NCBI GenBank assembly: GCA_017432615.1
Contig: JAFRIV010000005.1
Span: 22,687 to 86,686 of the forward strand
Length of the DNA: 64,000 bases
Source of the DNA: Oscillospiraceae bacterium
GTDB lineage: Bacteria; Bacillota; Clostridia; Oscillospirales; Oscillospiraceae
Direction of reading: 5' to 3'
The notes under the pieces were generated by a model. That model had not been told where the DNA came from. It ran no database searches and saw only the letters and a list, made by a program, of their open reading frames with translations. Position numbers and translations under genes: made by a program. Within the stretch, counting starts at the first letter, position 1; each line of letters opens with the position of its first letter. Below are positions 50,899 through 54,620 of the stretch, one piece after another.

Positions 50899-51276
50899 TT
50901 GAATACACTGGCTGAAAAGATTTCGGATTCCGAACTGGAAGTAATGAAGGTGCTTTGGGAGGCAGAAGATGCTCTTCCTGTTACCTCCATACGGGAATCT
51001 CTGGAACAGCGAAAGGGCTGGGAGGCGACGACAATCAAGACGCTGATCAGCCGCCTGGTTGGAAAGGGTGCAATCCGGCAGGAGAAGCGCAAAGTCTATT
51101 TTTACTGGCCTCTGATTTCCGAAAAAGAGTACAATGCCTGGGCAACTGAGAACCTGATCCGGAAGTTGTATAAAGGCAGTACGAAGGATCTGGTCGCAGC
51201 GCTGGTGACTTCTGATGGCCTTACAAAAGAAGACATAGAAGAACTGCGCACGATGTTTCTGGAGGGAACGCTATGA
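50899..51276 (+). CDS. blaI: BlaI/MecI-family transcriptional repressor
   Basis: 125 residues with a TTG start (GGAAGGTGG upstream). ISDSELEVMKVLWEAEDALP, TTIKTLISRLVGKGAIRQEK and VYFYWPLISEKEY are the winged-helix signature of BlaI/MecI. The dimerisation/cleavage helix lies in the C-terminal third. Represses its own operon through the operators at 50823-50874 until the linked M56 protease cleaves it. Its stop overlaps the protease start (ATGA). Confidence 0.94.
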   Translation: MNTLAEKISDSELEVMKVLWEAEDALPVTSIRESLEQRKGWEATTIKTLISRLVGKGAIRQEKRKVYFYWPLISEKEYNAWATENLIRKLYKGSTKDLVAALVTSDGLTKEDIEELRTMFLEGTL

Positions 51277-54200
51277 AGACGCTGATTACTCTCACGCTCA
51301 GCGGTAGTGCCTTGGTGCTCATTCTGCTGGCTTTAAAGGCAGCGTTTGGAAAGAAACTCTCCAGCACGGTAACCTACTATGCCTGGCTTCTGGTCATGCT
51401 GCGTTTTCTTCTGCCGCTGCCGGGTCTTATCCCCCTGGGAGGCGAGGCAGAAACAGTACCGGTCACACCCCGTCTGCCGGTTAGCAATGTTTCTCTGCAG
51501 CAGAATGGGGAAGCACGCGCAGTGCAGGACAGAGATTATGCCGCTTTCTGGGCAGCGCTTGACCGCTCGGAAGAGATCCGGGAACCGCAGGTGCAGCAGA
51601 ATACCCCCAAAACCGCCGTTTCCAATCCCTGGAAAAACGGGATGCTTTGGCTCTGCGTTTGGGCAGTTGGATTTGCGGGATTTCTGGGGCATTATCTGTT
51701 TTCCTATTTCCGCTTCTCCTTTGCCATGAAAAAGACTTTGCAGGCACCCACTGCGGCGGATCTTGCAGTCTACAGCCGATTCTCCGGCAGAAAGCCTTCT
51801 CTGTACCGCTGTTCCGCAACAAAAACGCCGATGATGGTCGGTGTGATGCGCCCGCGTATCCTGCTTCCGTTGGAGGTGGACAGCCCGGAGACTCTTTCCA
51901 ACATCCTGCGGCATGAACTGATGCATTATCGCCGGAAGGATACTCTTTATAAATGGTTTGCGGTGATTGTCTATGCGGCGCAGTGGTTTAATCCGCTTAT
52001 TTATCTCATGCGCAGAGAAGTCAACAGGGCTTGCGAACTGAGCTGCGATGAGATGCTGCTGCGGCGTATGGATGATCTTCAGCGCCGCGCCTATGGCGAG
52101 ACGCTGCTGAATATGGCCTCCGGTGCGGCCTTGCCGGCCGGTGTTGTAGCCACATCTTTTGCGACAGAAAAGAAAAATCTGAAAGAAAGGTTGATTCAAA
52201 TCATGGAATTTCAAAAGACCAAATCCAAAGTGCTTGCTTCTGTGCTGGCATTTGTCCTGCTGTTTTCCTGTGCCCTTTTCACCGGGCCTCGCAGTTATGC
52301 CGAAGAGGGGGCACCGGTTTCCGCTCCAGCAAAAACGGTGGAAGTATCCACCGTGGATGAACTGATTGCAGCTATTGCACCGGATACTGAGATCCTTCTC
52401 GCTCCGGGCACGTACAATCTCAGTGAAGCTTCCACTTATGGCGGAACTACCGGAAACAGCTACTGCGTGTGGGACCAGATGTATGACGGCCCTGCGCTGG
52501 AAATCTGGAATGTCAGCAACCTGACGATCCGTGGAGCGGGGAAAGACGAGACGACGATTGCCGCCGTGCCCCGCTACGCAAGTGTGCTTTCTTTCCAAAG
52601 CTGTAAAGCGATCTCCCTGGCTGATTTCACCGCCGGGCATACGCAGGAGCCCGGCTACTGCGCAGGGGATGTGTTCGACTTCGGCAATACCAAAAATGTG
52701 CAGATCAATGACTGTGGGATGTACGGCTGCGGCGTCATCGGCCTGAATGCCTGGAACTGCTTTGACTTCACAGTAACAGGCACGGAGATCTACAGCTGTT
52801 CTTACGGTGCCGTTTGTCTCTCTTCCTGCCGCGGTTTCCTGTTTGACGAGTGCGTTTTCCGGGATCATGCGAGCGCAATGGAGACTGCTGTCGGGTATCT
52901 GTTCTATGCCGATTCTTCCGAAAATGTTACCGTGCGCAATTCCGTCATTCGTGACAACTTTGCGCAGAATCTGCTGAGCACCGGCTACTCCCGCAACGTG
53001 GTCTTTGCAGGCAACGTAGTTGAGAATAACTCCTTCCTCTCCGCTGTTTTTGTGTCCCAGCACTACAGCCCTGTGGTGGAAGGATGCAGCTTTGAAAACA
53101 ACAGCATCTACACCTGGGTACAGGGCAACGGTGTCTTCCCGGTGGATGCCGAAGGAAACCGGCTCGGTCGTCCGGAGCTGGAAGCCATGTCGCACCGCAC
53201 TGTCTCCGCGGAGGAAAACTTCTTCCCGCCGCAGGCGGAAAATCCTTCTTCTGTTCCTCTTTCGGCGGACGGAACCTACCATGTGACTACAGTGGACGAG
53301 TTTCTGGCAGCCCTGGGCAGTGACCGCACGATTACCCTGGATGCGCCTGTCTTTGATCTGACTTCCGCTTCCGATTACGGCAGCCCAGGCAACGAATTCT
53401 ATTTCTGGAGAGAAAGCTATGACGGGCCGGAACTTGTGATCACAGGGGTGCACGATCTGACCGTTGACGTGAACAAGGAAGCCCTTGACTATTCACAGGC
53501 GGCATTGCACTATACGATCTCGGCAACACCCCGTTATGCAAACGTTCTGTCCTTCCAATACTGTGACAATATCAGGCTTCTGAACTTTACTGCGGGTCAT
53601 ACAAGGGAGCCGGGAGAGTGTTCCGGGGGTGTGCTGTTCTTCCAGAACTGCTCCATGGTCTACATCGGTTCCTGCCGTCTCTACGGATGCGGTATCCTCG
53701 GCATCGATGCGAATAACTGCTCTTCCGTCATGGTAAACGATACGGAGATCTTCGATTGCTCCCAGGGCGGGGCTTCCTTCTGGCAGACCGACGGGATCAC
53801 CCTGGATGGCTGCTCCATCCATGATATCAACGGCCCCGCTCTTTCCTTCGGGCAGAGCGGTGATAAGACCTGGAACGGGAACCCCATCTCCGGGCTGGAC
53901 GGGCAGTATTCCGTTGCTGAAGACGGATCCCTCGTTCCCTTTGACTGGGATGTGTATTATGGCAATAACCAGACCCAGGTTTATACGGAGCCGGCGGAAG
54001 TCGACCCGTTGGTCGCACTTGTCTGGGCGAGGGGAGAACTCAAACGTCTGCAGGATCTCGGCATCCTGAACCGTGCGATCCAGTTTGACGACGAACTGGA
54101 ATATGCTGCCTACTGCGACGCAAGGGAAGATGACGATACAGGCCGCAGCATAGAGCACGGCTTTTACGCACGGGACTATTCCGGCAAGTACATGATCAAC

Positions 54201-54620
54201 TTCCGGATCGACGATACCGTTACCGGCGATGTGCGCATGGCAAATATCGAAGCGGCGGCAGATCCGGATGAACCCCATAACGATTGGGACCCCATTGATC
54301 TGGGGAACGGCCTCTATTATTACTATGACAACTTTGACGACATTTTCCCTGCAGATCTGACACTCGGCAGCCTGTGCGATAAACTGGCTGCTTACTGGGG
54401 ATATACCGGCTGGACGCTTTCCGGCACGAAGGATGCGTTTTATGATCTCCACACCCCGGCCCCTGACCCGGATCTGCTTGTCTCCGAACTGCCGGAGGAC
54501 AACTATTACGTCACCGTTTACTTTGACGGCGATCAGGAAGGCGTTCCCATGTACATCCAGATCTGCCACTTCCCGGGCAGGGTCTACTTCGGCTTTGGAG
54601 AAGGGCATCTGGTCGGCTGA
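51273..54620 (+). CDS. BlaR1-like M56 membrane metalloprotease with a beta-helix sensor region
   Basis: 1115 residues. Residues 1-340 are a BlaR1/MecR1 M56 core: membrane helices near 2-24, 35-55, 124-148 and 318-336, with zinc protease motif H214-E-L-M-H218 and the third ligand region NRACELSCDEMLL (E255). Instead of a penicillin-binding sensor, residues about 355-640 and 668-890 are two tandem right-handed beta-helix domains, each opening VDE(L/F)xxA(I/L) and holding PRYA(S/N)VLSFQ, FTAGHT(Q/R)EPG and runs of N-x-x-V-x-(I/V)-x-D-C turns. Residues about 905-1115 form another domain (WARGELKRLQDLGILNR; aromatic, acid-rich). Inferred: an extracellular ligand, perhaps a polysaccharide, triggers cleavage of the neighbouring BlaI-like repressor. 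Confidence 0.88.
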   Translation: MKTLITLTLSGSALVLILLALKAAFGKKLSSTVTYYAWLLVMLRFLLPLPGLIPLGGEAETVPVTPRLPVSNVSLQQNGEARAVQDRDYAAFWAALDRSEEIREPQVQQNTPKTAVSNPWKNGMLWLCVWAVGFAGFLGHYLFSYFRFSFAMKKTLQAPTAADLAVYSRFSGRKPSLYRCSATKTPMMVGVMRPRILLPLEVDSPETLSNILRHELMHYRRKDTLYKWFAVIVYAAQWFNPLIYLMRREVNRACELSCDEMLLRRMDDLQRRAYGETLLNMASGAALPAGVVATSFATEKKNLKERLIQIMEFQKTKSKVLASVLAFVLLFSCALFTGPRSYAEEGAPVSAPAKTVEVSTVDELIAAIAPDTEILLAPGTYNLSEASTYGGTTGNSYCVWDQMYDGPALEIWNVSNLTIRGAGKDETTIAAVPRYASVLSFQSCKAISLADFTAGHTQEPGYCAGDVFDFGNTKNVQINDCGMYGCGVIGLNAWNCFDFTVTGTEIYSCSYGAVCLSSCRGFLFDECVFRDHASAMETAVGYLFYADSSENVTVRNSVIRDNFAQNLLSTGYSRNVVFAGNVVENNSFLSAVFVSQHYSPVVEGCSFENNSIYTWVQGNGVFPVDAEGNRLGRPELEAMSHRTVSAEENFFPPQAENPSSVPLSADGTYHVTTVDEFLAALGSDRTITLDAPVFDLTSASDYGSPGNEFYFWRESYDGPELVITGVHDLTVDVNKEALDYSQAALHYTISATPRYANVLSFQYCDNIRLLNFTAGHTREPGECSGGVLFFQNCSMVYIGSCRLYGCGILGIDANNCSSVMVNDTEIFDCSQGGASFWQTDGITLDGCSIHDINGPALSFGQSGDKTWNGNPISGLDGQYSVAEDGSLVPFDWDVYYGNNQTQVYTEPAEVDPLVALVWARGELKRLQDLGILNRAIQFDDELEYAAYCDAREDDDTGRSIEHGFYARDYSGKYMINFRIDDTVTGDVRMANIEAAADPDEPHNDWDPIDLGNGLYYYYDNFDDIFPADLTLGSLCDKLAAYWGYTGWTLSGTKDAFYDLHTPAPDPDLLVSELPEDNYYVTVYFDGDQEGVPMYIQICHFPGRVYFGFGEGHLVG

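Follow-up and report, generated by a model that had tools for sequence, protein, structure and literature searches.

BlaR1/BlaI has been studied as an antibiotic-resistance switch. What could a switch of this type be reading when its receptor carries beta-helices outside the cell? The question is raised by a two-gene operon in 64,000 nt (the window, forward strand) of an Oscillospiraceae bacterium whose genome is 87% complete (GCA_017432615.1, contig JAFRIV010000005.1, positions 22,687 to 86,686). The original prediction, made from the sequence, saw in its second gene (P0001) a BlaR1-type protease with an unusual ectodomain. The features are, in window coordinates:

50823..50851, + strand: sigma70-type promoter, TTGACA-17-TATGGT with TG ahead of the -10 (10/12 consensus positions)
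50825..50837, + strand: predicted operator O1 (GACATATGTAGTC), overlapping the -35, conserved upstream of BlaI in relatives
50861..50876, + strand: predicted operator O2 (GACTACACGTGTAATT; core TACACGTGTA), directly past the -10
50899..51276, + strand: BlaI/MecI/CopY-type repressor, 125 aa, TTG start (Pfam Penicillinase_R, 7.7e-30)
51273..54620, + strand: P0001, M56–beta-helix–beta-helix–C-domain membrane protein, 1115 aa
51279..52202, + strand: M56 peptidase domain, residues 3-310, with HELMH 214-218, E255xxxD259, Y274, and R306 (Pfam and BlaR1 alignment)
52155..52160, + strand: Ser295-Phe296, aligned counterpart of the BlaR1 autocleavage bond Ser283-Phe284
52230..52277, + strand: last transmembrane helix (TM4), residues about 320-335, with lipobox-like LFSC (Cys333)
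52332..53192, + strand: right-handed beta-helix 1, residues about 354-640
53277..53942, + strand: right-handed beta-helix 2, residues about 669-890 (second Pfam stretch; model; Cys spacing matching helix 1)
53985..54617, + strand: C-terminal alpha/beta domain, residues 905-1115, also present in membrane proteins whose genes adjoin ECF sigma factor genes

An Intact BlaR1-Type Core and Its Repressor

The protease core, its linked BlaI repressor, and the predicted operators are intact, as first proposed. Peptidase_M56 (PF05569) matches P0001 over profile positions 2-296 of 296 (1.3e-47; 162.9 bits against a cut-off of 31), and the HExxH...ExxxD zinc site is present as H214ELMH218 and E255LSCD259. 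Solved BlaR1 aligns with residues 206-335 (phmmer), pairing its H201/E202/H205 with H214/E215/H218, D210 with D223, E242/D246 with E255/D259, Y261 with Y274, and R294 with R306; the roles of these catalytic residues and the autocleavage bond are those given in the BlaR1 cryo-EM report (PMC9834060), and the standard BlaR1 model is that outlined in PMC7593790. A putative Ser-Phe autocleavage site, in the loop ahead of the last helices, thus falls at S295-F296. Across a 22-row family alignment all BlaR1-equivalent residues are invariant save S295, and F296 is invariant. Among named-genome relatives (the best 80 of 119 were kept, some assemblies giving two loci), HExxH occurs in 79/80, the exception (L161) being cut at a contig start, and ExxCD[EA] in 80/80. 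The NCBIfam model blaR1_generic reaches 109.4 bits, below its cut-off of 400, over the N-terminal part of P0001 only; the NCBIfam BlaR1 and MecR1 models likewise match only the N-terminal third, far below their cut-offs.

The ATG of P0001 overlaps the stop codon of the BlaI-type gene, to which Penicillinase_R assigns 104 bits (cut-off 22.6). Promoter-like sites number 7 in the region, with 3.9 expected. Against the BlaI/MecI operator consensus, which we take to be TACANNTGTA, O1 reads GACATATGTA (one mismatch) and O2 reads TACACGTGTA, placing candidate operators at the operon's own promoter. Upstream of the operon lies a gene for a BspA-type leucine-rich-repeat protein (48493-50232), and at 44751-48232 a LysM protein and the product of the next gene have by eye a common Ig-like stretch (KNPT...FVSPDG).

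Two Beta-Helices in Place of a Penicillin-Binding Sensor

The outside part of P0001 was originally read as two tandem right-handed beta-helices followed by a third domain, and Pfam and structure prediction bear this out. Beta_helix (PF13229) matches in two stretches (9.4e-19) and NosD also matches (5.7e-10); with E up to 0.1, Pfam finds nothing on P0001 beyond M56, Beta_helix, and NosD. An AlphaFold model built on the 22-row alignment (mean pLDDT 71) has both beta-helices, with pLDDT block means of 71-96 except at their ends, and helices at the four hydrophobic segments; its pTM of 0.46 leaves domain placement in the full model unsure. The predicted fold is that of right-handed parallel beta-helix proteins. 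The C-terminal part is poorly modelled at full length; residues 905-1115 modelled alone, on a 16-row alignment of their own, give pLDDT 88.6 and pTM 0.87, with no clear known fold found for the model. Beta-helices are, as the original prediction noted, common among carbohydrate-handling proteins, and the modelled fold raises the possibility that the ectodomain handles polysaccharides.

A penicillin-binding sensor was sought and rejected. Residues 340-1115 contain no KTG and no STxK, their two SxxK motifs are not conserved, and SxxK and SxN are chance occurrences; the model has beta-helices and no penicillin-binding fold is seen in the ectodomain. These observations bear on whether P0001 could be a degenerate receptor for beta-lactams, still responding to cell-wall antibiotics with the help of a partner. 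The M56/BlaI core and the operator layout are as in bla systems, and a partner-mediated response has been suggested (PMC9834060) for a Mycobacterium tuberculosis BlaR1 homologue without a sensor domain. However, neither the motifs nor the fold of a penicillin-binding domain is seen, the helix units retain an invariant motif of their own, and BlaI is the only conserved neighbour, so we consider this explanation very improbable.

Near BlaI-M56-helix operons, five loci (L108, L115, L129, L132, and L176) have an ECF-type sigma gene followed by a gene for a single-helix membrane protein, with varied ectodomains.

The Fusion Recurs in Gut Clostridia

The M56-helix fusion is present in 23/37 genus genomes looked at, own genome included. 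Among the matches listed for 150 sampled family genomes, M56 running into helices occurs only in the own genome and two others (G254 and G195). The search of other genomes put forward with the original prediction thus found the same architecture: in the best 80 relatives, M56 is followed by helix 1 in 80/80 and also by helix 2 in 79/80 (L181 ends with its contig), and BlaI lies directly upstream in 77/80, the other three loci (L106, L134, and L161) being cut within the gene where their contigs begin. By title, most of these 80 come from metagenome assemblies that carry the labels Oscillospiraceae, Ruminococcaceae, Clostridiales, or Clostridia, and ruminant gut is the source of many; AB4001 (L151, JHXJ01000001) is a record among them labelled neither MAG nor uncultured. 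The tail after helix 2 ranges from 13 to about 400 residues (22 proteins). Among the matches listed in the open-access literature, no M56 protein with a beta-helix ectodomain was found.

On another contig of the own genome lies a second BlaI-M56-helix-helix operon, 45-48% identical and with a different tail. An assembly chimaera or chance read-through of two genes, which the original prediction had named as a possible refutation, is itself refuted by this copy and by the 80/80 relatives from many assemblies; nothing turned up in its favour, and we give it virtually no credence. Operator arms differ slightly between the two operons (GTAGTCT/AGACTAC at window 50825-50876; GTAGCCT/GAGCTAC in L003, upstream of 6902), a difference that may keep the two circuits apart.

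Independent Fusions, Free Helices, and an Effector Alternative

A second joining of core and helices is seen in L238, from another genus of the family, which has the same kind of helices on a distant M56 lineage. Pfam confirms M56 and helix there; its BlaI is 28% identical, and the frame leaves the contig within helix 2. In an M56 phylogeny of 62 rows, a thinned set of the collected loci in which 27 carry helices, the helix label changes twice, and a single change suffices in 0/200 bootstrap trees. Judged from this phylogeny, the M56 core has been joined to polysaccharide-type helices at least twice in evolution. Together with the occurrence of the C-domain in membrane proteins beside sigma factors, this independent fusion indirectly supports the sensor role first proposed for the ectodomain.

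Other M56 relatives in the family carry different ectodomains: leucine-rich repeats (L262), an M23 peptidase (L265), and DUF5780 (L248) by Pfam, with M56 the sole Pfam domain in 6/10 relatives scanned. In L262 (929-3028) the leucine-rich-repeat ectodomain is long, and in L265 (about 909-2384, - strand) the outside part is an apparent cell-wall endopeptidase; a BlaI gene adjoins both.

The same genus and family also encode free helix proteins without M56, their helix units often paired; in L245 (899-2422, - strand) the unit stands behind a segment that by eye resembles an S-layer-homology domain. Since these free copies have no protease, the fold has work besides signalling, and as most are of lipoprotein type, the beta-helices may be effector as well as sensor. 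Elsewhere, beta-helices act as adhesins or as enzymes, which makes sensing by this ectodomain no more than a proposed role.

Could the beta-helix part of P0001 then serve mainly as an effector, binding or modifying glycans as a lipoprotein at the cell surface, with M56/BlaI only tuning its amount, perhaps in answer to envelope stress perceived by the membrane part or C-domain, and with the ectodomain possibly released at the TM4 lipobox? Free helix proteins with a readable start match the lipobox pattern in 15/21 (strict) or 16/21 (loose), and one (L236) has an M56-like remnant, TERLELIMPYRKS, ahead of its leader. In a tree of 43 helix rows, 28 of them fused and three (L238 among them) on long branches, the fused/free label changes nine times, at least six of the changes being forced by well-supported branches. 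A lipobox-like motif closes TM4 in 51/80 (strict) or 70/80 (loose) fused proteins, and the predicted regulon (below) is the protein itself. Yet the own genome's two proteins match unevenly (LFSC in P0001 loosely, LAGC in the second strictly), the segment lacks a Cys in 8/80 fused rows (including L181, which was misparsed), and the motif is not specific to helices because it also occurs in the nearest M56 proteins whose ectodomains are of another kind (strict 8/20, loose 10/20). We therefore regard a mainly effector role as a serious but rather unlikely alternative.

The Predicted Regulon Is the Operon Itself

The operator scan suggested with the original prediction was run on 61 genus genomes, and the sites read all lie at BlaI operons. 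The pattern TTGACANNTGTAGNCT gave 38 sites in 36/61 genomes (3 for a reversed-pattern control). All 31 distinct sites read precede a BlaI gene. Three of the seven remaining sites were also placed, two of them ahead of BlaI genes (G007 = L028, G021 = L010) and one upstream of an M56 match (G019). The own genome has only two exact sites, one per BlaI operon. No exact site was found in 25/61 genomes, the pattern could miss weaker operators, and the 87% completeness of the own genome also limits what the scan could find there. Among 76 readable BlaI genes of the named relatives, the O1 script pattern stands upstream of 64, and by eye the variant TTGACANNTGTAA accounts for nine more.

BlaI forms by far the largest neighbour cluster (67 loci in the script, 77 by direct search), and no other cluster occurs in more than 8/80 loci, small clusters not being identified singly. 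In the upstream DNA read for 22 distinct free helix genes, no BlaI-type operator was found (23 rows were surveyed, with L041 and L119 representing one gene; 87 bases were available for L241 and none for L033). Because the operators read occur only at BlaI operons, no other neighbour is conserved, and free helix genes have none in the upstream DNA read, the circuit's predicted output is its own operon; since the scan yielded no further accepted operator of this type, what the circuit mainly sets would be the amount of beta-helix protein itself. The predicted regulon is thus essentially the BlaI-M56-helix operon.

A Proposed Self-Controlling Receptor

We favour, as probable though well short of certain, the explanation that the two genes form a BlaI-M56 switch with P0001 as its receptor. 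The original prediction, of a system that reads an extracellular polymer by regulated proteolysis of a BlaI-like repressor, is partly supported, with the polymer as presumed ligand and BlaI as presumed substrate; the self-directed regulon and the free helix proteins go beyond it. With no signal, BlaI would keep the operon that encodes it repressed. A ligand outside the cell, the likeliest being a glycan from the gut or from the bacterium's own surface, would engage the ectodomain, and the resulting change would be relayed through the last transmembrane helix; the M56 protease would then cut itself, BlaI, or both, derepressing the operon so that more beta-helix receptor is made. A BlaR1-type core on a polysaccharide-type ectodomain thus seems to control mainly itself, which suggests that a BlaR1/BlaI-type switch is usable for sensing things other than antibiotics. 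If this is true, activation of an inside M56 protease by an outside signal becomes testable with non-covalent ligands, and the family points to a class of gut glycan receptors with a BlaR1-type core.

A broader reading would join sensor and effector. In it, gut Clostridia would use M56/BlaI as a general modular platform for receptors, comparable to RsgI/SigI but built on a protease and a repressor, and would exchange the ectodomains (beta-helices, leucine-rich repeats, M23 peptidase, and others). The beta-helix branch would be closed on itself: ligand frees the operon from BlaI, the ectodomain can come off as a lipoprotein where the last helix ends, and sensor and response are one molecule, while the C-domain reads the same cue as the sigma/anti-sigma pair carrying it. 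Taken as a whole, we think this unlikely.

Comparison with Known Systems

The P0001 system resembles BlaR1/BlaI and MecR1/MecI of Staphylococcus aureus in its M56 gluzincin core, where the catalytic and autocleavage residues agree, its BlaI-type partner, and the predicted BlaI-type operators at its promoter. It differs in carrying two beta-helices and a C-domain where those receptors have a class-D beta-lactamase-like sensor, in having no resistance gene as a conserved neighbour, and in that operators were found at no operons but its own. The free beta-helix proteins encoded in the genus and family share its units; they have neither M56 nor such an operator in the upstream stretch read. By fold, the helices compare with the A-modules of the mannuronan C5-epimerases AlgE4/AlgE6 and with an alginate epimerase/lyase (14-17% identity); we know of no protease or repressor attached to these.

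The single-operon regulon has a parallel in BlaI_1845 of Clostridium thermocellum, whose reported regulon (PMC8457756) is one operon with itself and a BlaR1; unlike the P0001 system, that operon is assigned there by its authors to the beta-lactam response. The closest functional analogy is with the RsgI anti-sigma-I biomass sensors of C. thermocellum, cited for their working likeness and not as a family of P0001. As described in PMC12203970, their C-terminal sensors are swapped among carbohydrate-binding modules, glycosidase-type domains, and others. Both would be membrane signalling proteins with an exchangeable carbohydrate-type sensor; RsgI, in that account, acts by way of sigma-I and is cut by RseP, whereas P0001 would itself be the protease, its presumed target a BlaI-type repressor.
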